Shown: one piece after another, positions 18,819 through 39,096 of the stretch
How positions within the stretch are numbered: the stretch's first letter is position 1
Layout of the letters: every line of letters starts with the position of its first letter
Virus record (IMG/VR): IMGVR_UViG_3300046792_000331
Span: 1-44,114 of that record
Reading direction: 5' to 3' (one strand)
DNA length: 44,114 nt
Source: a virus
The notes under the pieces: generated by a model
Databases searched by the model: none
What the model was told of the DNA's origin: nothing
The model's input: the letters and a program-made list of their open reading frames with translations, nothing else
Translations under genes and position numbers: made by a program

Positions 18819-20237
18819 CTACTGCCCTGGCGGCGGCGAGGGCTGCTGGCCGGACGGTGGCGGAGGCTGCTGGCCGCCGTTCTGCACGAAGGACAGCAGC
18901 GGATCACGGGCGGCCTGGTCTGCGGCCTGCTTCTTCCAGCGGTCGATCTCGATCTCGGACGCGCCCCAGCGCTCCCACAGGGCCTCGTTCGGAACGCCGA
19001 TCGTGGACATCTTGACCAGCGAATCGACGAGCTCGCCCTCAGTGCGGAACTCCGGGTTACGCCACTTCGTCTCGATCTGCTCGGTGCCATCGGACTTGCC
19101 GGCCGCCTTGCGGGCCAGCCGCATGGCGTCCTCCATGCCCTCGCCGGACGTCCGGTTGCGCTGCCGCACCTTCGAGACCAGGCCCGACTCGGACGCCTTC
19201 AGCGTCTCGCCGTTCACGTTCGACATCTCGCCGAGCAGATACTGCGCCGGGGTCCGGGTGCGCGACGCGATGTCCTTGACGTCCTCGCGCTTCGCGGCAC
19301 TGTAGGGGTCGAGCGGCGCCGCGTCCCACTGGCCGAAGGCGGTCTCTGCGGCGTCGGATGTGACCATCCGGTCGCGGCCGATGTCGATCCGGTTCGCGTT
19401 GCCGTCGGCGTCGTGCTCCGGGTAGCCCTTCGCCCACTTCTGCGGGAACGCTCCGAAGTCCTGGGTCATGAGCCGGTCGGCCAGGGTCTTGTTCACCCGG
19501 TCCTGGATCGAGATGACGTCGGCCAGTTCGGACACGCCTCCGGTCAGCATCCGCGGATTGTTCGCGACCTCGACCAGTGGCACCTCTTTGAGCGGGTTCG
19601 GCGCCGGCCAGGGCTCGCCGCGCACCTCGCGGGGCTTCCACTCCGGGTCGCTGACTGAGGCGCCGTACTTCGGCTTCGGGGCCTGGAACTTGTAGATCGC
19701 GTCCGGCAGGTAGAGCGTGGCCATCCGCAGGTCCGACCAGTCGTCCTGCCAGACCTTCAGCCCCGCGGCCCGCCGGCGCCGACCCGAACCGGGCTGGTAC
19801 TCGACGGTCGCCTGGGTCGGATGCTCGGCGTAGATCAGTGGGTAGTCACCGTCCGGCTCTGGCGGGGCGACGAGCAGGAAGCTGCAGCCGCCGATGGCCG
19901 CCTCGAGGAGTACCTGGTCGGAGCTGGCGTCGAGGTTGTTGGCCTGCCAGATGTCCCAGGTCGGCATGTCGCCGGCGAGGTTCTTGCCGATCCGGAAGCC
20001 TTCGACGACCTGCCGCTCGACCATCGCGTCGACGACCAGGCCCATGTAGTTGCTGTTCGACAGGGACAGCAGCCGGGAGAACTCGTCGCGCGCCTGCTCG
20101 GCCAGCCACGGCAGCCGGGCCGGCTTGCCGCAGTAGTACGCGTCGAACAGTTCGAACGTCTCGCGCTGGTCCTTGAGCTGCCTGTAGAGCCGCTTCACCC
20201 ACCACAGCGGCGAGAGGGGCTGGTCGGACGTAGCCAC
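18819..20237 (-). CDS. Portal protein
   Basis: A 472-residue protein of the SPP1/HK97-like portal class. The N-terminus has a typical lead (PLWWVKRLYRQLKDQRETFELFDAYYCGKPARLPW). It contains NNPRMLTGGVSELADVISIQDRVNKTLADRL and TPAQYLLGEMSNVNGETLKASESGLVSKVRQR, both diagnostic for actinophage portals. The C-terminus is Pro/Gln-rich. It forms the dodecameric DNA gate and terminase docking ring. Confidence 0.93.
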   Translation of the reverse strand: MATSDQPLSPLWWVKRLYRQLKDQRETFELFDAYYCGKPARLPWLAEQARDEFSRLLSLSNSNYMGLVVDAMVERQVVEGFRIGKNLAGDMPTWDIWQANNLDASSDQVLLEAAIGGCSFLLVAPPEPDGDYPLIYAEHPTQATVEYQPGSGRRRRAAGLKVWQDDWSDLRMATLYLPDAIYKFQAPKPKYGASVSDPEWKPREVRGEPWPAPNPLKEVPLVEVANNPRMLTGGVSELADVISIQDRVNKTLADRLMTQDFGAFPQKWAKGYPEHDADGNANRIDIGRDRMVTSDAAETAFGQWDAAPLDPYSAAKREDVKDIASRTRTPAQYLLGEMSNVNGETLKASESGLVSKVRQRNRTSGEGMEDAMRLARKAAGKSDGTEQIETKWRNPEFRTEGELVDSLVKMSTIGVPNEALWERWGASEIEIDRWKKQAADQAARDPLLSFVQNGGQQPPPPSGQQPSPPPGQ

Positions 20238-20250
20238 CGGATCCCCCTCG

Positions 20251-21846
20251 TCAGTAGCCGCGGACGCGTCCGGTGACGCGGGTCAGGGTCTTGCGGTTCA
20301 GTCCGGCCTCGATGACGTCGGCCCGGGCCTCGTAGGCCAGCGCGGCCCCGACCACCGAGTCGATCTTCCGGGGGCTTTTGTCGTGCTCCTTGCGCACCAG
20401 CCGGTGACCGCCCTTGTTCCGCACGTAGGCGTTGCCGAAGTGCTCCATGAACGTGCCGTCACCCGAGTGCCACACCTCGCCGACCACCAGGTCAGTGCGC
20501 AGCCGATCGAGCGCGGCCGCCATCTGCACGTCGCGGCGGGTCTCCCAGGCGATCACCCGGCTCTCGCCAAGATCCTTCGCGAGATCGTCGATGTCCGTGC
20601 GCCACTCGTGCGGGTCCGCATACAGCCGGGTGACCTTGTAGCGGGAGAACGCCTCCCGGACCGCGGCGAGCACGTCGGCGCGCGGGACCTCCCACCAGTT
20701 GCCCTCAGGGCCGGCCGGCTTCGCCCAGATGCCCACCGGGAACAGGAACCCGTCGGAGATGCGAGAGCCGATCAGCACCGTCGAGTCGTCGTTCAGCGAC
20801 CCGTCGAAGCCGAGCGCGATCTCCGCACCTGGGTCGACCATCTCGGTGCGCTTCTGTCGCTCGACGACGTCCAGCGGGATCCAGACGTCCTTCGTCGACT
20901 GGGCCCGGTTCAGGAAGTAGCGGGCCGCGGTCGCGTCGTCCGGGCAGGACCGGGGGTCGCGCATTTCGCGGTAGATCCGGGGCAGGTCCATCCAGGCCGC
21001 CGCAGCGCCGTAGACCTGCTTGAGCTGCGCAAGGGTGTGCTGCTCGTCGTCCAGGTCGATCCGGCCCTTGGCCTCGCGGTGATCGACATATACGGCGGCC
21101 GACAGCTCGCCCTTGCGCCAGGCCGTCAGCGTCTCCTCGGCCGTCGACTGCTCGCCCGGCCGGTACGCGGTGGTCGTCTGCATCAGCCACGGCTCGGCGA
21201 GCTTGCGCTTGCCGAGGTTCCGCTTGACCGTGCCGTACATGGCCTTCGGCTCGCGCAGCACGTACAGGTGGGTCTCATCGGCGCAGACCCAGGTCTCCTT
21301 ACCGCCGTCCTTCGACGCGGCGCCGGCCGTGCAGGCCCTGATCTCGCCGCCGTGCGGCAGGTAGAGCGCGGTCGCCGACTGATACTGCCGGATGCCCGAG
21401 ACGCCGCCGTAGATGTCCGGGTGGACGTCCGGGCCCCATGTTCCGGCGATGAAGGCGATGTTCTCGAACGTGTTGCCGGCCTGCGACTCCTCGGTCGCGA
21501 GGCACTTCAGCAGCGGCGAGACGATCGGACGAGCCACCGGCTGTCCGTTCGCGTCCCAACCGTCGAAGCGCACCGGAGCGAAGCCCTCGGCGGTGCCGAT
21601 GAAGCCCGCCAACTCACTCTTCGCGCGGCCTTTTGGCCGGCTGAGCACGGCCTCGTCGTTGACGCGACGGCCGGTCTGCGGATCGAGCCGGTAGGCCTCG
21701 ACGATGAAGTTCAGCCACTCGTCGTCCAGCTCGATCGGCTGACCCTGGATGTCGCCCGGGCCATGGCAGCAGTAGGCCTGGATCCAGTCGGCGACCTCGT
21801 AGCCCAGGGAGCAGACATGCCCCTCGAACAGGGGATGCCAGCCCAT
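20251..21846 (-). CDS. Terminase large subunit
   Basis: A 531-residue packaging ATPase/nuclease. A deviant Walker A occurs at about residues 69-78 (SRPKGRAKSE), the form usual in actinophage terminases. Walker B-like residues are in ETWVCADETHL (about 205). The nuclease domain begins around ALGFDGSLNDDSTVLIGSRI, with its first catalytic Asp and following acidic pair. It overlaps the small subunit by one base pair at 21846. Confidence 0.93.
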   Translation of the reverse strand: MGWHPLFEGHVCSLGYEVADWIQAYCCHGPGDIQGQPIELDDEWLNFIVEAYRLDPQTGRRVNDEAVLSRPKGRAKSELAGFIGTAEGFAPVRFDGWDANGQPVARPIVSPLLKCLATEESQAGNTFENIAFIAGTWGPDVHPDIYGGVSGIRQYQSATALYLPHGGEIRACTAGAASKDGGKETWVCADETHLYVLREPKAMYGTVKRNLGKRKLAEPWLMQTTTAYRPGEQSTAEETLTAWRKGELSAAVYVDHREAKGRIDLDDEQHTLAQLKQVYGAAAAWMDLPRIYREMRDPRSCPDDATAARYFLNRAQSTKDVWIPLDVVERQKRTEMVDPGAEIALGFDGSLNDDSTVLIGSRISDGFLFPVGIWAKPAGPEGNWWEVPRADVLAAVREAFSRYKVTRLYADPHEWRTDIDDLAKDLGESRVIAWETRRDVQMAAALDRLRTDLVVGEVWHSGDGTFMEHFGNAYVRNKGGHRLVRKEHDKSPRKIDSVVGAALAYEARADVIEAGLNRKTLTRVTGRVRGY

Positions 21847-27148: not shown

Positions 27149-27378
27149 GCGTGCCTCCGGGAGTCGATCGGGGTGACGGTGGCGAGGCGGGGTGGGCGGC
27201 GCGGCTCGCGGTCGCGGAACTCGGCGGGCGGGATGTTCTCGGGCTCGCGGTCGTGGTTCGCGATGGCTTCGCTGCGGCAGAGGCGGCAGTTGGTTTGAAG
27301 CTCCGATGGGTGGCTGCGGCAGCGTGGTGCGTCGCGGTCGAGGTAGGGGCTGGGGTCGTCCAGCCAGTGGTCGGTCAT
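27145..27378 (-). CDS. Small early protein with C-x2-C
   Basis: A 77-residue polar protein: aromatic N-terminus (DHWLDDPSPYLDRDAP), then CRSHPSELQTNCRLCRSEAIA with three Cys and one His, then an Arg/Pro-rich tail. Possible zinc knuckle. Coupled by four-base overlaps to its neighbours. Not otherwise recognised. Confidence 0.58.
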   Translation of the reverse strand: MTDHWLDDPSPYLDRDAPRCRSHPSELQTNCRLCRSEAIANHDREPENIPPAEFRDREPRRPPRLATVTPIDSRRHA

Positions 27379-27638
27379 GGCTCAGCCCGCGCCCAGCAGA
27401 TGCAGCAGTCGACGCTGGCAGGGATGAAGTGCCCTTCCCGGCGCAGGCGGTCGAGGCAGCCTGCGGACGGGCAGGGGTGCTCGTGTCCTGGGCCCTCGTC
27501 CGTCACGTAAACGCCGTGGTAGCCGAGTGCGACGAGGCATTCCGCGATCTCCTTCACGGTCACGTCGCCGTCGGTGGCAAGCGCGACCGTGAAGCGCTGG
27601 GTGTCCATCCCGATGAGGTGGTCTGCTGGCTGGCTCAC
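27375..27638 (-). CDS. Small early protein with C-terminal Cys/His cluster
   Basis: An 87-residue protein. The centre DVTVKEIAECLVALGYHGVYVTDEGPGHEHPCPSAGCLDRLRREGHF resembles a small alpha/beta fold followed by a C/H-rich loop, with CCICW near the end. It lies directly downstream of the putative replication initiator. Function unknown. Confidence 0.6.
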   Translation of the reverse strand: MSQPADHLIGMDTQRFTVALATDGDVTVKEIAECLVALGYHGVYVTDEGPGHEHPCPSAGCLDRLRREGHFIPASVDCCICWARAEP

Positions 27639-28390
27639 ATGGCCTCCCTGGTGAAGAAGTCGACGACGGGCGCAACGTGCTCGGCGGGGTTCGGCGGTCT
27701 CGCGTGCGGGAGTGAGTTGCGCTGTTGGTCTTGGGCTGGGGTAAGTGGGTCGGAGGGTGACTTGTTCTCATCGGTGGCCGACGCCGGAGGCGGCGGGCGT
27801 CGCCGGGGGCCTGGGGGCGGCGCGCCCCCAGTGAGAGGTGATCTTTTGTCTTTAGGTGGGGGCTCACTCATAGGTGAGCGCAGAAAACCGCTTCTGCGCT
27901 CAGTTCTTTGGGTGAGCGCAGAAGGCTCCTCGTCGGCACCCTCGGAATCCGTAGCTTCTGCGCTCACTTCTTGGGCGAGCGCAGAAAGACGCCGAGCCTT
28001 TTCGCCGGTGCGGTTGGTCGCCTTCATGCCGTCGACAAGATCGTGGTACTCCGCCTCGTCCAAGGCATTGATGGCCTTCTCGGTGTGCGGAAGGACGGTC
28101 AACCGGTACTCGTCGGCCCGCTTCGCCTTGCGGTTGCCGACCTTCACCAGCTCGATGAGGCCGACCTCGCGCATCCAGGCCAGGTAGCGGCGGGCAGTGC
28201 TGAAGCCCATCTCGCAGTCCGCGGCCAGGCGGGCGACGCCGCACTTCACGCTGGTGCCGTCGGTGTTCGCGTACGAGCCGACCGTCAGCGCGACGGCCTT
28301 CTTCTTGTAGTCGGCGAGGCGGGCGCGGCGCACTACGGCGTACCACCTGCCCAGCGACGCGCCGAAGTCGACGATTTCATCTGCGCTCAC
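27635..28390 (-). CDS. Winged-helix DNA-binding protein, putative replication initiator
   Basis: A 251-residue protein, GTG start chosen at 28390. Residues about 10-115 form a winged helix: AVALTVGSYANTDGTSVKCGVARLAADCEMGFSTARRYLAWMREVGLIELV, then a basic wing (KVGNRKAKRADEYRL). This pattern is found in phage replication initiators and HTH_36 proteins. The C-terminal half is Pro-rich and disordered; its codons carry five copies of TGAGCGCAGAA in both orientations. A sixth, one-mismatch copy spans the start codon. This layout, initiator gene containing its own iterons, resembles the lambda O gene. A regulator is the alternative. Confidence 0.7.
   Translation of the reverse strand: MSADEIVDFGASLGRWYAVVRRARLADYKKKAVALTVGSYANTDGTSVKCGVARLAADCEMGFSTARRYLAWMREVGLIELVKVGNRKAKRADEYRLTVLPHTEKAINALDEAEYHDLVDGMKATNRTGEKARRLSALAQEVSAEATDSEGADEEPSALTQRTERRSGFLRSPMSEPPPKDKRSPLTGGAPPPGPRRRPPPPASATDENKSPSDPLTPAQDQQRNSLPHARPPNPAEHVAPVVDFFTREAM
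27875..27986. repeat. Iteron cluster within the initiator gene: candidate replication origin
   Basis: Copies of TGAGCGCAGAA: 27875-27885 (+), 27892-27902 (-), 27913-27923 (+), 27956-27966 (-) and 27976-27986 (+, one mismatch at the first base). The first two form a perfect 11-bp inverted repeat with a 6-base centre. One further one-mismatch copy, inverted, covers 28379-28389 at the gene start. A comparatively AT-rich patch (27840-27855, GATCTTTTGTCTTTA) flanks the cluster and could be the unwinding element. Confidence 0.7.
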
Positions 28391-28717
28391 CAGGCGTACG
28401 CCTGTTCGGTGGCGAATTGCACAGCGTGGAAAAGCGTGCGCAGAGAGCAAGGCCATGGCAGCATCAGGCCACGGGTCCTTCCGGTGCTGTCGGAATGGGC
28501 CTGCGGGACGGGTGTTAGCGCACCCGTTCCGCCCCCACATTCTCCCAGCTCAGCGGGCGCGTGAATACCATTCATCCACTCCGACACGCCGATGCCCTCT
28601 GTATTCCTGCCCACAACTCGCCCTCGTGCTTCTATCGCGCCGTGCAATTCGCCGGGGATGGCCGAATAGGCCGGGCATGACACGCCCGGCCACAATCGCC
28701 GAATGGTGCAGCCGGTG
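28391..28717. other. Noncoding interval (327 bp) with two dyads, upstream of the initiator gene
   Basis: No convincing gene. ACGGGTG-TTAGCG-CACCCGT is a perfect 7-bp inverted repeat at 28508-28527 and could be an operator or attenuator. GGCCGGGC-ATGACAC-GCCCGGCC is a perfect 8-bp inverted repeat at 28669-28691, 27 bases after the methyltransferase stop, and is a likely terminator without a U tract. The rest probably holds the promoter for the initiator and distal early genes; no consensus element stands out. Confidence 0.5.
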
Positions 28718-29458
28718 TCAGGCAGCCCCTTTCGCATGGTCGAGAATCAGGCCGCCGATGAGTTCCCCGACCGGTGGCACGACGGCATTTCCGAGTCCAG
28801 CCAAGGGCTTGGTAACCAGTCGAGAGGGAACCCCATGAGCCACGCGACCCAGGTCGGGTTCAGGTAGCCACCCTGCTCTCCACGCTTGGCCACGCGCTGC
28901 TCCAGCGAGCTGCCTTCCCTTTGCCACTGCGGTCGCGGATTGGCGAGGTTCTTCGCGGTGCGCGCCAGGGGCGTAGGCCACCAGGAACAGGCGCTCACGT
29001 GCATGTGACGCACCCACCGAGCACGCGGATAGCACCGTCCAGTCCGCATCGAACCCGTCTTCGGCCAGGTCACCGAGCATCCATCCGAAGGCGTCGGCGT
29101 CGTCAAGGAGAGCTGCGACGTTCTCCACGAGGACGTATTCCGGTCGTACTGTGCGAACGACAGCGCGGAACCAGGGCCATCCCCAACGGGGGTCGCCCGT
29201 ACCTCGGCGGAGGCCGGCGGTCGAGAAGGGCTGGCAGGGGAAGCCGCCGGCGACCAGTCGAACAGGGGGTCTTGGTCGAGCGGACCACCATTTGGGGGTC
29301 GTGCGGACGTCGTCATGCTTGGGCACCTCGGGCCAATGTAGATCGAGGATGGTCCGGCAGTACGTGTTCAGCTCCACCTGGCCGACGCAGGTCATGCCGG
29401 CACGGTCGAGGCCCAGGTCCAGGCCGCCGATACCGCTGAAGAGCGACAGGTAGTTCAC
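28718..29458 (-). CDS. DNA (cytosine-5) methyltransferase, orphan
   Basis: A 246-residue compact enzyme. Motif I LFSGIGGLDLGL (SAM binding, residues 6-17), motif IV GGFPCQPFS with nucleophile C75, motif VI ENV (112-114), motif VIII-like HARERLFLVA, and motif X-like GLGNAVVPPVGELIGG are all in order, so it should be active. The target-recognition part is very short. No partner restriction gene is nearby, so it probably protects phage DNA from host restriction or tags it. GTG start overlaps the preceding stop. Confidence 0.93.
   Translation of the reverse strand: MNYLSLFSGIGGLDLGLDRAGMTCVGQVELNTYCRTILDLHWPEVPKHDDVRTTPKWWSARPRPPVRLVAGGFPCQPFSTAGLRRGTGDPRWGWPWFRAVVRTVRPEYVLVENVAALLDDADAFGWMLGDLAEDGFDADWTVLSACSVGASHARERLFLVAYAPGAHREEPRQSATAVAKGRQLAGAARGQAWRAGWLPEPDLGRVAHGVPSRLVTKPLAGLGNAVVPPVGELIGGLILDHAKGAA
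28747..29316 (-). other. Overlapping +1-frame reading frame inside the methyltransferase gene
   Basis: A 189-codon open frame, embedded wholly within the methyltransferase gene. Its product contains SSWRTSQLSL, WPKTGSMRTGRCYPRARWV, SWWPTPLARTAKN and LNPTWVAWLMGFPLDWL. These match a motif series I recall from separately annotated phage proteins that end in W-L-M-G-F-P-x-G-W. The last motif falls opposite the methyltransferase GVPSRL...GLGNAVVPP segment. It is either a conserved overprinted gene or a shadow widely annotated by mistake. Confidence 0.4.
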
Positions 29459-31503: not shown

Positions 31504-31664
31504 CGGCCCGCCCTCAGCTTGCGGGGCGAGTGCGGCTCCTCGGCCTCGACGGCGACGGTCACGTTGCCCTCGACTACGAAGCCCGACGTCTTCAGGCACG
31601 GCTTGCCCAACTCGGCCTCGCACACCTCGGAGCACTTCTGCCATCTCTCCCAGTCGACGGTCAC
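31500..31664 (-). CDS. Small Cys-rich protein (54 residues)
   Basis: From GTG at 31664, overlapping the stop of the ArsR-like gene. The product opens VTVDWERWQKCSEVCEAELGKPCLKTSGFVV (three Cys), with an acidic centre and a basic C-terminus. A similar Cys-spaced opening with G-K-P-C occurs in actinobacterial zinc-finger microproteins. Unknown role. Confidence 0.6.
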   Translation of the reverse strand: MTVDWERWQKCSEVCEAELGKPCLKTSGFVVEGNVTVAVEAEEPHSPRKLRAGR

Positions 31665-31960
31665 CGGAACACCCCCAGCGCCCCGGCCAGCCGCTCCAGG
31701 ACGCCCGGCACCAGGCAGTACGGCGCCGTCCTGGACGACCGGGCGATCAGACCCGCCTCGGCCAGCACCCGCAGGTGATAGGAGACCGTCGCCTGGTTCA
31801 GCGGCGTCTGTTCGACGATCTCCATCACGCGCATGCCGCCGTAGATGGCCAGCATCGACAGGATCCGCAGCCGGACCGGCTGGCCGAGCGCATCGAACAC
31901 GGCGGCCAGGTCTGCGACGTCGGCATCGGACGGCAGCTCGTGCAGCAGGTCACGCCGCAT
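31661..31960 (-). CDS. ArsR-family winged-helix regulator
   Basis: A 99-residue protein: AAVFDALGQPVRLRILSMLAIYGGMRVMEIVEQTPLNQATVSYHLRVLAEAGLIARSSRTAPYCLVPGVLERL is a full ArsR winged helix with the usual recognition helix (Q-A-T-V-S-Y-H-L). The C-V-C metal site of classic sensors is absent, so it is probably not a metal sensor. It is coupled directly to the recombination genes and may autoregulate this segment. Confidence 0.87.
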   Translation of the reverse strand: MRRDLLHELPSDADVADLAAVFDALGQPVRLRILSMLAIYGGMRVMEIVEQTPLNQATVSYHLRVLAEAGLIARSSRTAPYCLVPGVLERLAGALGVFR

Positions 31961-32844
31961 CAGGACTCACCGCCCTGGGCTGCGGCCATCTGGTCCTTGC
32001 GCTCGCGCAACGCGTCGATGAGCCGGTCGGCCTCGTCGCGGGTCAGGTCGCTGCTGGACTCCAGTGGCTCGGTAAGGCCGAGGATCTGCGCCGTGAGCCA
32101 CAGCCGCTTGCGGCGGTCCTCCTCGGAGTCGCTGTAGCCCAGCTCGCCCCACAGCGCGAACATGTGGCCGCGCTGCTTGTCGGTCAGCATCTCCACCGTC
32201 GGCTCGACCGGTGGCGGCTGGAGCGCGGCTCGCGGCTCGTCGAGGTCGGCGACCGTGAGCCGGCGGGTGGCCAGCTGCACGCCGCGGGCGTTGGCGTAAT
32301 GGTTCGGCTCGCTGTCCAATTCCTCGGCCGCGTACGGCATGCCCATGATGGCGTCGCTGGCGATCCACCGGCATTGCTCGGCGGTGGCTCTGGCGAGCAG
32401 CATGGCGGCCGGGTTGGTCTTGTAGTTCGGGTTGCTCTTGTACTGCGGCATGAGCGACGCACGCTCGATGGTCCAGATGGACGGCGCGCCCCACTCGATG
32501 TCGCCCTTGCGGCGCCCGTCGACGACGGCGCGCTCCGACGTGGACTCGACCACGCGGATCTGGTGGCCCGCCGCCTGCACGACGGCGCGCAGCGTGATGG
32601 CCTTCGGTGCCGGGACGCCCTGGATGTTGTCGAAGGCGCGCAGCGACGCCATGGGGCTGAAGCCGAGCTCGGCGCCGGCGAGGATCGCGGCGCACGCTTC
32701 GGCGGGCTTGCCGCGGTAGGCGGCCGGGACCATGGAGGTGGAACAGACGCGGTCGGCGTAGACGGCGGCGGCGGTGGCCTGCTGCGCCCAGACCTGCAGG
32801 TCGATGCCAGGCGTGGCCTGGTCGGGAAGGACGAGGTCGGTCAT
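31960..32844 (-). CDS. RecT-like single-strand annealing protein
   Basis: A 294-residue protein. FSPMASLRAFDNIQGVPAPKAITLRAVVQAAGHQIRVVESTSERAVVDGRRKG, followed by PAAMLLARATAEQCRWIASDAIMGMPYAAEEL, is the pattern of actinophage RecT-like recombinases. The C-terminal domain after residue 220 (TDKQRGHMFALWGELGY) is a helical extension also seen in such proteins. It starts at ATG overlapping the exonuclease stop (TGATG). With the exonuclease it forms a homologous recombination pair. Confidence 0.8.
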   Translation of the reverse strand: MTDLVLPDQATPGIDLQVWAQQATAAAVYADRVCSTSMVPAAYRGKPAEACAAILAGAELGFSPMASLRAFDNIQGVPAPKAITLRAVVQAAGHQIRVVESTSERAVVDGRRKGDIEWGAPSIWTIERASLMPQYKSNPNYKTNPAAMLLARATAEQCRWIASDAIMGMPYAAEELDSEPNHYANARGVQLATRRLTVADLDEPRAALQPPPVEPTVEMLTDKQRGHMFALWGELGYSDSEEDRRKRLWLTAQILGLTEPLESSSDLTRDEADRLIDALRERKDQMAAAQGGES

Positions 32845-33692
32845 CAGTACTCCTCGGTCTTGACCCACGCGGGCAGGTCGATGTCGGTGATCTCGTCGGT
32901 CGGGTAGCCGGGCCAGACGCCGGACGCCTGGCAGTCCCTGAAGATCTCGAGCGCCTGGGACACCTGCCGGTCGCCCCACGCGATGGCCCGCTCGGTGAGC
33001 TGGTTGACGTGCACGAGGTACGGCGGCGCCTTCTCGACGGCGATGTGCACGAAGTAGGGCTCGACGCCGGGGAACAGCGCCCGGAAGCCGCGCAGGTAGA
33101 ACGGCGACTGGATCGCGTACCCGTAGTTGTGAGCCGCCTTCGACAGGGCATCGGGCGCGGCGCTCTCGGTGGTCTTGAGGTCGACGATGCCGTCCGGCCG
33201 CAGCCAGTCGGCCTTCGCCCGGCACAGCACGCTGGTCGCCGGGTCGCGCCAGATCAGCGTCTTCTCCGGCTCGCCGCTGACCAGCAGCTTCTTGGCGACC
33301 GGATGAGAGCTGACGGCCTTCCACATGGCGAGGGCGGCGGCGTAGTCGGACGGGCGCAGCGGCACGTAGTGCTTCGCGCGCAGCCTCGCGACCTCGGCCT
33401 TGTCGGCGTCGGTCCGCCACGCCTCCGGGTCCTTGCCGGTGCCCACGACCTCGACCGGCGTCGGCCCGGCGCCGAGCACCAGCGTGTGCACGGCGTGACC
33501 CAGGTCGAACTCGCGGCGGATCTCCAGCGTGCCGTTGTCGATGGCGTGCCGGAAGCGGGCCGGGCCGCCGGGCTTCAGCAGCTCCCGCGCGCCGGTGCTG
33601 GACAGCGTGGTGCTCGCGAGCACCGGGCCGAAGTACTCCTCGTCGGACAGCTCGTAGACACCCGGCTCGTAGCCGGTCTCGACCGCGGTCAT
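32844..33692 (-). CDS. RecE/Cas4-like PD-(D/E)xK exonuclease
   Basis: A 282-residue protein; ATG at 33692 overlaps the preceding stop (TGATG), excluding an upstream in-frame GTG. Nuclease motifs are in order: H66 in GHAVHTLVL, E143 in GEPEKTLIW, D162 in RAKADWLRP, and D171-x-K173 in GIVDLKTTES. The sequence matches the DUF3799-type RecE exonucleases. It should resect DNA ends for annealing by the RecT-like partner. Confidence 0.86.
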   Translation of the reverse strand: MTAVETGYEPGVYELSDEEYFGPVLASTTLSSTGARELLKPGGPARFRHAIDNGTLEIRREFDLGHAVHTLVLGAGPTPVEVVGTGKDPEAWRTDADKAEVARLRAKHYVPLRPSDYAAALAMWKAVSSHPVAKKLLVSGEPEKTLIWRDPATSVLCRAKADWLRPDGIVDLKTTESAAPDALSKAAHNYGYAIQSPFYLRGFRALFPGVEPYFVHIAVEKAPPYLVHVNQLTERAIAWGDRQVSQALEIFRDCQASGVWPGYPTDEITDIDLPAWVKTEEY

Positions 33693-34102
33693 CACAGCCT
33701 CGCCCACGTGCAGTCGCCCAGCAGCTTCAGCAGCCGGTCACCGGAGCCGACCGTGAACCGGTCGAAGCCGCCACGGTTGACGGTCCCGGAGTCGATCACC
33801 GACTTCGGCTTGTCGTCGTCGGCCTTCAACCTGATCCACGAGCAGCCGAACGTGCTGCTGGTGCCCGCCGCGACGATGTACGCGCCCGGCGTGACCTCGG
33901 CCGGAACCGTGAAGGTGCCGCTACCGACCCAGTTGATCCGGGCGCCGGGGAACGCACGCTCGGCGATCGCGGCCGGGGCCGGCTGCTCGAACTGGCCGGC
34001 GGCGGGGGTGGGCTTGACTGCCCATCCGACGATGCCGCCGACGAGAAGCCACACGGCCGTGGCGGCGAGGTAGATCCATGGTGCGAATCGCGGCGGCTTC
34101 AT
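33692..34102 (-). CDS. Membrane-anchored exported protein of actinobacterial secreted type
   Basis: A 136-residue protein. Residues about 8-29 are a transmembrane segment or uncleaved signal (WIYLAATAVWLLVGGIVGWAV). The exported domain contains VGSGTFTVPAEVTPGAYIVAAGTSSTFGCSWIRLKADDD and ends LLGDCTW. That G-T-x-x-V-x-x-x-V-x-P-G-x-Y pattern with two Cys is shared with secreted proteins of Streptomyces and mycobacteria. A host-like surface protein within the recombination operon is unusual and may modify the infected cell's envelope. Confidence 0.7.
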   Translation of the reverse strand: MKPPRFAPWIYLAATAVWLLVGGIVGWAVKPTPAAGQFEQPAPAAIAERAFPGARINWVGSGTFTVPAEVTPGAYIVAAGTSSTFGCSWIRLKADDDKPKSVIDSGTVNRGGFDRFTVGSGDRLLKLLGDCTWARL

Positions 34103-36768: not shown

Positions 36769-37436
36769 CGCGAGGCTCCGTTCACCAGTCGAAGGCCAGA
36801 GGCGTCGCGCCGGGCGGACCGGACGCGGTCGCACCAGCGGGTCATCTCATCCAGGAAGGGCCGCACGGCCTGGTCGAAGTCGACCGCGTACACCTCGGCG
36901 ATACGGTCGACGTCGAACTGCCAGAGGTCGTCGGCGCGGCAGACGATGGTCGAGAAGTTGTTCCGGAAGCGCTGCGCCGTGCCCTCCATCTCGGCGTCGA
37001 GCTGACGGTCGAGCGGGGTGAAGTCGGGCACGGAGGTCTCGTCCTTGGGGATGGGATTTGGCTGAGTGGCCGGACGCTCCCGACCGTCGAGAGAGATCAC
37101 CTTCGTCGGCTCTTCGACTGCCACATTTGTGGCAGTCGAGAGATCGCGGCGAACGGTCTCCTTCGAGACGCCGAGCGCAGCGCCGATCGCACGCTGGCTC
37201 ATGCCGCCATGCCGCAGCTCGGCCACCATCGCCGGGCGGTCGCCGGTCGGCACGCGCACGTCGCTCAGCTCGGTCGAGCAGTAGGCCTGCCAGGAGCCAT
37301 ACCCGAGCACCTTGTCGGCGCGGCCCTCGAATGCCCGCTTGATCTTCGGAAGAAGGCCGTCTAGGTCGCGGCGGATCTCGGCTGTCAGTTCCCGTGCCTC
37401 GTCGGCAGTCAACTCGGTGGTGGCGATGTCGGTCAT
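36765..37436 (-). CDS. HTH DNA-binding protein, early operon second gene
   Basis: A 223-residue protein from ATG at 37436. N-terminal helical region (IRRDLDGLLPKIKRAFEGRADKVLGYGSWQAYCSTEL), then an HTH (AMVAELRHGGMSQRAIGAALGVSKETVRRDLS), and a C-terminal helical domain after a linker with KVISLDGRERPA. The general arrangement resembles ParB-like or antirepressor-type HTH proteins of actinophages. It probably regulates phage transcription or partition. Confidence 0.75.
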   Translation of the reverse strand: MTDIATTELTADEARELTAEIRRDLDGLLPKIKRAFEGRADKVLGYGSWQAYCSTELSDVRVPTGDRPAMVAELRHGGMSQRAIGAALGVSKETVRRDLSTATNVAVEEPTKVISLDGRERPATQPNPIPKDETSVPDFTPLDRQLDAEMEGTAQRFRNNFSTIVCRADDLWQFDVDRIAEVYAVDFDQAVRPFLDEMTRWCDRVRSARRDASGLRLVNGASR

Positions 37437-37693
37437 GCCGCGCTCGCGGCGGTCGGCGTCTCGACCAGTCGGGCAACGGGGATGTTCAGCTCGGTGGCGA
37501 TCCGCACCAGCTCGGCGGCCTCGAAGCCGATGGAGCCGGCGAACCGCTTGCTGATCTGCGGCTGGGAGACGCCGAGCATCTCGGCGAGATCGTCTTGGCC
37601 CTTGCCGGCGCGGATCATTTCGGCCTTGACGTTCTGGCCGATCTGTCGCCGAATCGGGTCGACGTCCCGCGAGGGGCGGATGTCGTCTGTCAT
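37433..37693 (-). CDS. Cro-like XRE-family regulator, first early gene
   Basis: An 86-residue protein. ATG at 37693 is preferred; the in-frame ATG at 37705 lies within the probable -10 element. HTH: IGQNVKAEMIRAGKGQDDLAEMLGVSQPQISKRFAGSIGFEAAELVRIATELNI, a complete five-helix XRE domain. It is the first gene leftward and divergent from the repressor, the classic position of Cro. Probably shuts off repressor synthesis. Confidence 0.85.
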   Translation of the reverse strand: MTDDIRPSRDVDPIRRQIGQNVKAEMIRAGKGQDDLAEMLGVSQPQISKRFAGSIGFEAAELVRIATELNIPVARLVETPTAASAA

Positions 37694-37702
37694 GGCGTAG
37701 AG

Positions 37703-37730
37703 CATGTATCAAATAGCGATACGGTGTCAA
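37703..37730 (-). promoter_or_regulatory. Early leftward promoter with operator dyad
   Basis: On the minus strand TTGACA (37730-37725) and TACATG (37708-37703) are 16 bases apart. GTATCGCTATTTGATAC, a dyad with 5-bp arms, occupies the spacer and would place repressor or Cro over the promoter. The expected start lies just before ATG 37693. Confidence 0.6.
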
Positions 37731-37817: not shown

Positions 37818-38237
37818 ATGACGACACCATCGGAACAGCGACCCGCGACGCTGACCGAACTCGTTGCGCAGGAAATCGACTCCGTCCGGGGACGGAGGCG
37901 GATGTCTCAGGCGCAGCTGGCGCGGACCATGGGAAAGACGCCCATGTGGGTGTCGCTACGCCTCCGAGGACTGCAGCCCATCGACATGAACGACCTGCTG
38001 GCCTTCGCTCGAGCGCTGGACGTAAACGTGCACCAGCTGCTCCCGAGTCCCGAGATAGTTGCGGGGGCGGCCATCCCGTCAGCTACGGTTGCGTACCTTG
38101 CACTGGCCGAACGGCTGACCGGCCTTGCGTCGCGCCCGTCCGACAACCGGCCGAAGGGCCGGTCCTCCCGCGCCAGCGCGACCGGCGTCGGTCACACGGC
38201 CTACCTCTCCCGTGGCGCACGGCGCCGGACGGCCTGA
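37818..38237 (+). CDS. Immunity repressor candidate (XRE family)
   Basis: A 139-residue protein from ATG at 37818. The HTH lies at about residues 25-75 (RRRMSQAQLARTMGKTPMWVSLRLRGLQPIDMNDLLAFARALDVNVHQLL). The C-terminal 60 residues are Arg/Ser-rich and lack a LexA-like peptidase site, so induction would not be by self-cleavage. It faces away from the Cro-like gene and is followed after 7 bases by the integrase, a typical compact immunity/integration cassette. TTGACG at 37780 may be its -35. Confidence 0.8.
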   Translation: MTTPSEQRPATLTELVAQEIDSVRGRRRMSQAQLARTMGKTPMWVSLRLRGLQPIDMNDLLAFARALDVNVHQLLPSPEIVAGAAIPSATVAYLALAERLTGLASRPSDNRPKGRSSRASATGVGHTAYLSRGARRRTA

Positions 38238-38244
38238 ACGGATC

Positions 38245-39096
38245 ATGCGCAAAGATCTAGCCCCGGCGCAGCCTCGGGAAATGCAGATCATCGACGCTTA
38301 CATCGAGCACCTCCGCCGGGCCGGATGCACCCAGGCCACCCTCGAAGGCCGCTACGAGATCCTCCACCGGCTCAACCGCGAGCTTCCGTGCGGCATCGGC
38401 CAGACCAACACCGAGGAGCTGTCGCGGTGGCTCTACCGGGACGAGTGGTCGACCAACACGCGGGCGACGTACTGGCGCGCCATCCGGTCCTTCTACGGTT
38501 TCGCCGCTGACGCCGAGGACCCCTGGATCGACCGCAACCCCACCGAGAAGATGGAACCCGTCCAGACCATGCGCGGCGTACCGCGGCCGGTGACCGACCA
38601 GCAGTTGAGCCGCATCCTCACCGAGGCCCCCGAGCCGCTGCGCATCTGGTGCCTGCTGGCCGCGTATCAGGGCTTGCGCTGCATCGAGATCTCCCGGCTC
38701 GACCGGGAGCACGTCACCGAGCAGAACCTGTTCGTCGTGCGCGGCAAGGGCGATCGGCCGCGCGTGCACGACACGTACCCCGCAGTGTGGTCGGCCGTGA
38801 AGGACCTGCCTCGCGGGCCGATCGCGGTCGGCGACGACGGGGTTCGGCTGACGCCGTTCGAGGTGAGCCTGCGCGCCGCTCACCACTTCCGCCGGCAGAT
38901 GAACATGCCGGGGGTCTCGCTGCATCGCCTGCGTCACTGGCTCGGTGTCACGGCGCAACGCAAGTACCGGGACATCCGGGTGACGCAGGCGATGCTGGGG
39001 CACGTCTCGCTGTCGAGCACGCAGATCTACACGATGGGCAGCGAGGAGCAGCAGCGCGAGGCGCGTTCTACTCTTCCGAGGTTCGACGGCGAATGA
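38245..39096 (+). CDS. Tyrosine recombinase (integrase)
   Basis: A 283-residue protein from ATG at 38245. The N-terminal SAM-like core-binding domain (about 12-105) precedes the catalytic domain: R145 in GLRCIEISRL, K169 in RGKGDRPR, H227-R-L-R230 in SLHRLRHWLG, H253 in LGHVSLSSTQ and nucleophile Y262. All active-site residues are present. It lacks the larger arm-binding domain of lambda Int. It should integrate and excise the phage, together with an AlpA-like factor nearby. Confidence 0.92.
   Translation: MRKDLAPAQPREMQIIDAYIEHLRRAGCTQATLEGRYEILHRLNRELPCGIGQTNTEELSRWLYRDEWSTNTRATYWRAIRSFYGFAADAEDPWIDRNPTEKMEPVQTMRGVPRPVTDQQLSRILTEAPEPLRIWCLLAAYQGLRCIEISRLDREHVTEQNLFVVRGKGDRPRVHDTYPAVWSAVKDLPRGPIAVGDDGVRLTPFEVSLRAAHHFRRQMNMPGVSLHRLRHWLGVTAQRKYRDIRVTQAMLGHVSLSSTQIYTMGSEEQQREARSTLPRFDGE

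Follow-up and report, generated by a model that had tools for sequence, protein, structure and literature searches.

Where does this phage begin to copy its genome, and could the site lie inside the gene of the protein that acts on it? The stretch of DNA analyzed here, which we call the window, is a 44,114-bp virus record and is a temperate phage. It encodes an integrase (38125-39096), a repressor-like helix-turn-helix (HTH) protein (37433-37705), RecE-like and RecT-like proteins (32844-33707 and 31960-33420), a terminase (20251-21846), and a portal (18819-20237). The original prediction, which came from reading the sequence, took a cluster of short repeats within a winged-helix gene for a lambda-O-type origin carried in an initiator gene. 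Comparison with homologous loci supports this reading: homologs with other repeat words keep the place of the array, its phasing, and a G-poor tract, and many have DnaA boxes as well. We consider it very likely that the replication origin of this temperate actinobacterial phage lies inside the gene of its own initiator, a winged-helix protein predicted to bind TGAGCGCAGA words.

The putative initiator gene and its product

The putative initiator gene (27635-28390, minus strand) has a GTG start and encodes 251 amino acids, a winged helix followed by a disordered tail. Its identification draws on PHROGs matches, an AlphaFold model, and homologs. In PHROGs, the best match is phrog_26991 (unknown function; E 1.5e-7), and families named "replication initiation protein" and "replication initiation O-like" match weakly at E about 1e-5 (the O-like family, phrog_391, at 1.6e-5). 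A Pfam scan of the protein gave no family above its cut-off and no RepA_N (E 0.1 or better), Rep_3, or O match; an IclR-type HTH appeared below threshold.

AlphaFold predicts a confident winged helix, with pLDDT above 90 over about residues 11-130, and a low-confidence tail from about residue 145. We place the DNA-binding domain at about residues 11-110 (28061-28360, minus strand). The DNA coding for the tail holds the repeat array, so the model agrees with the predicted layout of a winged-helix protein whose disordered C-terminal part contains the repeats. The best Foldseek matches to the domain are winged helices of the MarR/ArsR type (E about 1e-3 to 1e-2); such superfold matches do not discriminate, and the fold search picked out no single initiator family. 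Searching solved structures by sequence returned nothing useful for the initiator. Despite the disordered, variable tail before it, a DFFTRE sequence at the C-terminus (window residues 243-251) is conserved in the window, L007, and L033, and is possibly a partner-binding peptide.

The gene lies downstream of RecE/RecT, as it does in L005, whose homolog is annotated "replication initiation protein." The gene next to it (27375-27638) has no PHROGs match. Directly upstream is a C5 cytosine methyltransferase ORF (28718-29458, minus strand; Pfam DNA_methylase), which may be interrupted or diverged; the Pfam match spans only profile positions 1-168 of 324. Two 16-nt arms of an inverted repeat (28411-28426 and 28638-28653), 94% complementary and 211 nt apart, also lie upstream of the initiator gene. 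A second small HTH protein (31661-31960, minus strand), encoded just downstream of RecT, weakly matches replication initiation families as well as regulator families. Among the roughly 40 window proteins scanned (chosen ORFs), we recognized no helicase loader, helicase, primase, or polymerase.

A repeat array that resides in the DNA

The five predicted copies of TGAGCGCAGAA, four of them perfect and lying in both orientations, were all located within exactly 112 bp at 27875-27986. In gene direction, the first copy (27976-27986, plus strand) carries one mismatch, and the perfect copies follow at 27956-27966 (minus), 27913-27923 (plus), 27892-27902 (minus), and 27875-27885 (plus), the last adjoining the G-poor tract described below. 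Their spacings, listed from the last copy back to the first, are 20, 43, 21, and 17, with alternating orientation, less regular than in most arrays of the family. Beyond the array and a copy at the start site, the 44,114-bp window contains no further copy at zero or one mismatch. When we slid a 400-bp frame across the whole window, the other families of four to five copies were only loose ones (two to four mismatches), mostly GC-rich.

An array within a coding region could simply reflect repeated peptides. In 200 synonymous-codon shuffles that kept the protein, the largest repeat family had three copies, compared with five in the same stretch of the real gene. Because the shuffles never rebuild the array, the repetition resides in the DNA and is not a consequence of the protein.

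The AT-rich patch proposed beside the array is present but mild: positions 27826-27861 are 47% AT, the window as a whole is 31% AT, and AT content peaks at 53% in the best 40 bp. A more apt description is a coding strand rich in A and C and poor in G. We also looked at GC skew: over 24-28 kb it stands at about +0.17, and at 28 kb it drops to almost 0. Gene content explains this equally well; in the window the skew is dominated by gene content and makes a weak test, not decisive for the origin.

Most homologous loci carry arrays of their own words

We gathered relatives with the winged-helix part only, through domain and domain-alignment searches, so that the DNA behind the domain provides an independent test. 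Looking up the whole initiator protein in viral contigs and phage records gave no match, because the tail has diverged. Some 30 distant relatives keep the layout seen in the window; they come from phages and prophages of actinobacteria, a phage of satellite size, and a linear, phage-like plasmid. Copies were counted with one mismatch allowed, over the first 500 bp past the domain match. At least five copies of one 11-bp word are present in 28 of 37 loci, and at least four in 30 of 37, the window included. By comparison, random sequences of similar dinucleotide make-up yield two to four copies, and only 2 of 254 control windows in the same loci reach five. In the 28 loci, five to nine copies of a lineage-specific word of about 11 bp lie just 3' of the winged-helix coding part.

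The loci are partly interdependent, as the M. abscessus group holds near relatives; for finer counts we dropped L004, L024, and L028, leaving 27 loci. The array rule is strong but not universal across the family: L006 lacks an array altogether, and L025-L027, L043, L048, and L050 have only three strict copies each.

Each locus's word is almost absent elsewhere in that locus, and the words differ between lineages. The window shares TGAGCGCAGA with its closest relative, L007, which is 75% identical in the domain and carries seven copies. Elsewhere the word is GAGCGCTGAT/GAGCGCTAAT (GAGCGCTgAT; L008 and L033), GAGGTCTG (L035), TCTACGGACAC (L030 and L040), GTCTGGGGATCA (L001, Micromonospora plasmid), or ACGACCGGACA (Mycobacterium abscessus phages). 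The window's clade comprises nine loci (tree support 96/99): the window, L007, L008, L030, L033, L034, L035, L040, and L029, a prophage in Microbispora rosea. Residues 64 and 67, for example, vary with the word, STARR occurring with GAGCGC, STAQR with GAGGTC, and RTAGR with GTGTCCGTAGA. We infer a putative pairing of these recognition-helix residues with the iteron word.

A distant homolog with seven iterons occurs in the satellite-sized Mycolicibacterium phage JSGardenL2 (L003; 10.9 kb), where it is the sole replication-like gene on the stretch read. In two Mycobacterium abscessus phages, a DNA polymerase III sliding clamp is encoded a few genes upstream of the initiator (L002, 931-2079; L004, 843-1991).

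The reading frame does not always extend over the repeats. In L001, L010, L012, L013, L051, and, within the window's clade, L008, the initiator ORF ends about where the array begins, and the stop codon precedes most or all of the repeats. Selection thus acts on the DNA apart from the protein. In L008, the DNA 3' of the array aligns with window coding DNA at GAGCCCCCACCT, a hairpin, and CAGCGCAACYCACTCCCGC.

Conserved elements beyond the last iteron

Neighboring copies in the same orientation are spaced by 21-23 bp (mostly 22), 33-34 bp, or 44-46 bp across the family. With the two-turn class left out, none of 5,000 random sets reached the periodicity of the 30 remaining spacings. Helical phasing is clear family-wide; the window itself, with its alternating copies, is only loosely phased.

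Past the last copy, a fixed series of elements follows. The first, present in most loci, is half a copy of that locus's word in inverted orientation, with a mean longest match of 7.0 nt compared with 4.5 nt for the words of other loci. In the window, own-word match and alignment place it at 27862-27867 (minus strand; GTGAGC). Next is a CCCACC box, found at most 60 nt after the last copy in 21 of 27 loci, against an expectation of about 0.04 per 60 nt. Its offset is 9-14 nt in 20 of the 27 and 39 nt in L029, where we read by eye an additional own-word copy ahead of the box. The window's box lies at 27855-27860 (minus strand).

The half-copy and box lead into the G-poor region. In the 27 loci, the 40 nt that follow the array have a GC skew of about -0.46; ahead of the array it is near 0. 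By skew and composition, the corresponding tract in the window, CCCCACCTAAAGACAAAAGATCACCTCTCACTGGGG (27826-27861, minus strand), is a candidate DNA unwinding element. After it comes a GC-rich 9-bp hairpin, CTGGGGGCG-CGC-CGCCCCCAG (27811-27831, minus strand), at the same position in L007, L008, and L033 and not present in L034 or L035. In L008 the stem is kept by a two-sided change to CTGGGGGCA-CGC-TGCCCCCAG. Farther on, alignment identifies a conserved DNA block, CAGCGCAACTCACTCCCGC (27706-27724, minus strand), largely kept in L008, where it falls outside the initiator ORF.

DnaA boxes accompany the arrays of many relatives

Of the 27 loci, 12 have perfect TTRTCCACA boxes in the array zone; across 400 permuted patterns, the number of such loci averaged 0.06 and never exceeded 2. 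Box density is 1.33 per kb in the array zone and 0.02 per kb elsewhere, an enrichment of about 60 times over background. Where the array is coding, the box is apparently read in several loci as Val-Asp-Asn (PVDN) in the tail. In L001, L013, and L051, the boxes are outside the initiator ORF. Neither the window nor any other member of its nine-locus clade has a box. As sequence evidence, the boxes make the strongest argument for origins over operators, and they are seen only in relatives outside the window's clade. Taken as a whole, the family looks like an iteron origin with varying DnaA dependence.

A copy at the start codon and an upstream leader

The original prediction also placed a one-mismatch copy over the GTG start and suggested that it could repress synthesis of the protein. 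This copy is present at 28379-28389 (minus strand), over the start codon at 28390-28388, and is a candidate autoregulatory site. With start codons set by alignment, a copy of the locus's own word (at most one mismatch) falls within the stretch from -50 to +30 relative to the start in five of the nine clade members (the window, L029, L033, L034, and L040) and in none of L007, L008, L030, and L035. The rest of these loci gives an expectation of 0.0048 copies per 80 nt. Because the start copies follow different words (GAGCGC type, TCTACGGACAC type), inherited chance is an unlikely explanation. The recurrence of such copies, each in its own word, supports autoregulation by the initiator and is consistent with the suggested repression.

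The start codon is also overlapped by the TGA stop of a 25-codon leader ORF, MLPWPCSLRTLFHAVQFATEQAYAW (28387-28464, minus strand), preceded by a strong ribosome-binding site, GGAAGGA (28476-28482, minus strand). L007, L008, L033, and L034 keep the same order, in which GGAAGG is followed by the ATG of an 18-25-codon leader with a stop codon that overlaps the start of the initiator; in this common arrangement GGAAG stands 18 nt upstream, and CGGAAGG is invariant in the five aligned loci. A strong ribosome-binding site is not evident at the initiator start itself, which makes translational coupling likely: the initiator is probably translated in concert with its leader.

Alternative explanations for the array

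Might the winged-helix protein be a transcription regulator acting through a cluster of operators in its own gene, with replication starting elsewhere? The nearest solved folds are MarR/ArsR regulators, the sub-threshold Pfam signal is of the IclR type, and one copy sits on the start codon, all of which fit a regulator. However, an operator made up of five to nine copies, far downstream of the start, would be unusual; the words hardly occur in the loci outside the arrays; and the arrays come with a G-poor tract and perfect DnaA boxes. PHROGs and phage annotators, moreover, name homologs replication initiation proteins. We regard a purely regulatory role as very improbable.

Short phased repeats beside a winged-helix gene also describe partition centromeres, and the array might be such a site, with the winged-helix protein occupying it in the way that TubR, itself a winged helix, occupies its repeats or ParB occupies its parS repeats. 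Mycobacteriophage parS sites are indeed arrays of 8-bp repeats (PMC7157519). Against this, no TubZ, ParM, or ParA motor was recognized among the window proteins scanned, the presence of an integrase means that partition is not required, and neither DnaA boxes nor an unwinding-like tract belong to a centromere; a partition site is less probable still. The slightest chance of all belongs to a repeat at the protein level, in which SALT/VSAE peptides in the disordered tail would produce the DNA repetition as a by-product. It could appeal to the position of the array within an open reading frame and to similar peptides in L007, but copies lie on both strands and the synonymous-codon shuffles fail to recreate them. 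We rejected it on those shuffles and on the non-coding arrays of L001, L008, L010, L012, L013, and L051.

Comparison with known origins

An origin within the initiator gene most readily recalls lambda. There too, iterons lie within the initiator gene, immediately past the segment that codes for DNA binding, and beyond them the coding strand becomes rich in A and poor in G (ACACAAAAGACACTATTACAAAAG... in the lambda unwinding region, CACCTAAAGACAAAAGATCACC... in the window). Lambda has four 18-bp iterons, nearly perfect inverted repeats that bind dimers (PMC5043065). The present family instead has five to nine asymmetric words of about 11 bp in mixed orientation, together with an inverted half-copy and CCCACC box, a start-codon copy, and, in many relatives, DnaA boxes. 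Nor did we find an adjacent helicase loader P in the window, or any lambda P-like gene among the window proteins scanned. The predicted "lambda O arrangement" therefore holds for the layout and not for the parts, which are short asymmetric words rather than 18-19-bp inverted repeats, with no P-like gene.

Two plasmid groups come as close as lambda. RepA_N initiators of the pSK41 type have a winged-helix N-terminal domain, origin boxes central in the rep gene, and an origin-encoded linker (PMC5703833). The likeness to the window, a winged helix and an origin within the rep gene, is one of anatomy only; the window initiator has no RepA_N Pfam match. In pSK41 there are four Rep boxes, and the C-terminal domain is folded and binds primase; the window tail is predicted to be disordered and is absent in short relatives. 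Iteron plasmids (P1, F, RK2, R6K) have helically phased iterons, an A+T-rich opening region, and DnaA boxes (PMC5043065). The present family resembles them in phasing, opening region, and DnaA boxes (the last in relatives only). Their origins, however, usually lie outside the rep gene, the window initiator has no Rep_3 match, and the window's clade lacks a DnaA box.

Among phages, the RepA proteins of extrachromosomal mycobacteriophages (Miko, Rachaly, CRB1) were suggested, by analogy with lambda, to have an origin within the gene, and the authors found no repeats near repA (PMC7157519). They resemble the window initiator as phage-coded HTH initiators. Overall, the window origin appears to work like lambda O/ori and the RepA_N plasmids and is not shown by sequence to be a member of these or of the iteron plasmids.

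Discussion

Sequence comparison establishes the array and its conserved place, phasing in the family, the flanking elements, the DnaA boxes of relatives, the start copies, and the overlap with the leader. Binding, melting, loading, and repression are deduced, and we picture them as follows. The winged-helix initiator would bind the TGAGCGCAGA words and bend the DNA. The initiator-iteron complex would then strain the DNA past the last copy, across the half-iteron, the CCCACC box, and the A/C-rich, G-poor tract. Initiator binding brings about melting in lambda and iteron plasmids (PMC5043065). The G-poor tract would open, and the replication machinery would be loaded there. The host probably supplies that machinery, since our scan of window proteins found no gene for a loader, helicase, or polymerase. 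Many relatives may draw help from host DnaA bound to boxes in the array; the window's clade would have lost its boxes or never had them. As the initiator accumulates, it could fill the start-codon copy and shut off its own synthesis, and the leader ORF overlapping the start would couple initiator translation to that of the leader.

We lean toward the view that these loci represent an undescribed class of actinobacterial origin. It would consist of a freely evolving pair of initiator and iteron set on fixed parts, namely phased last copies, the inverted half-iteron, CCCACC, and the G-poor tract, with DnaA dependence gained or lost between clades. The CCCACC/G-poor part might serve as a site for a host factor or capture the opened strand. 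Our literature search covered open-access papers, subscription papers lying outside it, and found no description of this origin family there; we claim its novelty with caution.

In the annotated relatives read here, genes of this family are mostly listed as "helix-turn-helix DNA binding protein" or "hypothetical protein," and the present reading would give them a function and a defined cis-site. The family may offer ready-made small replicons for actinobacteria with many mutually different iteron words, as well as a natural series for matching recognition helices to DNA words. Clades with and without DnaA boxes, found side by side, would make the switch in DnaA dependence testable. Judged by their sequences, these so far unnamed DNA-binding genes look like replication modules, each self-contained.
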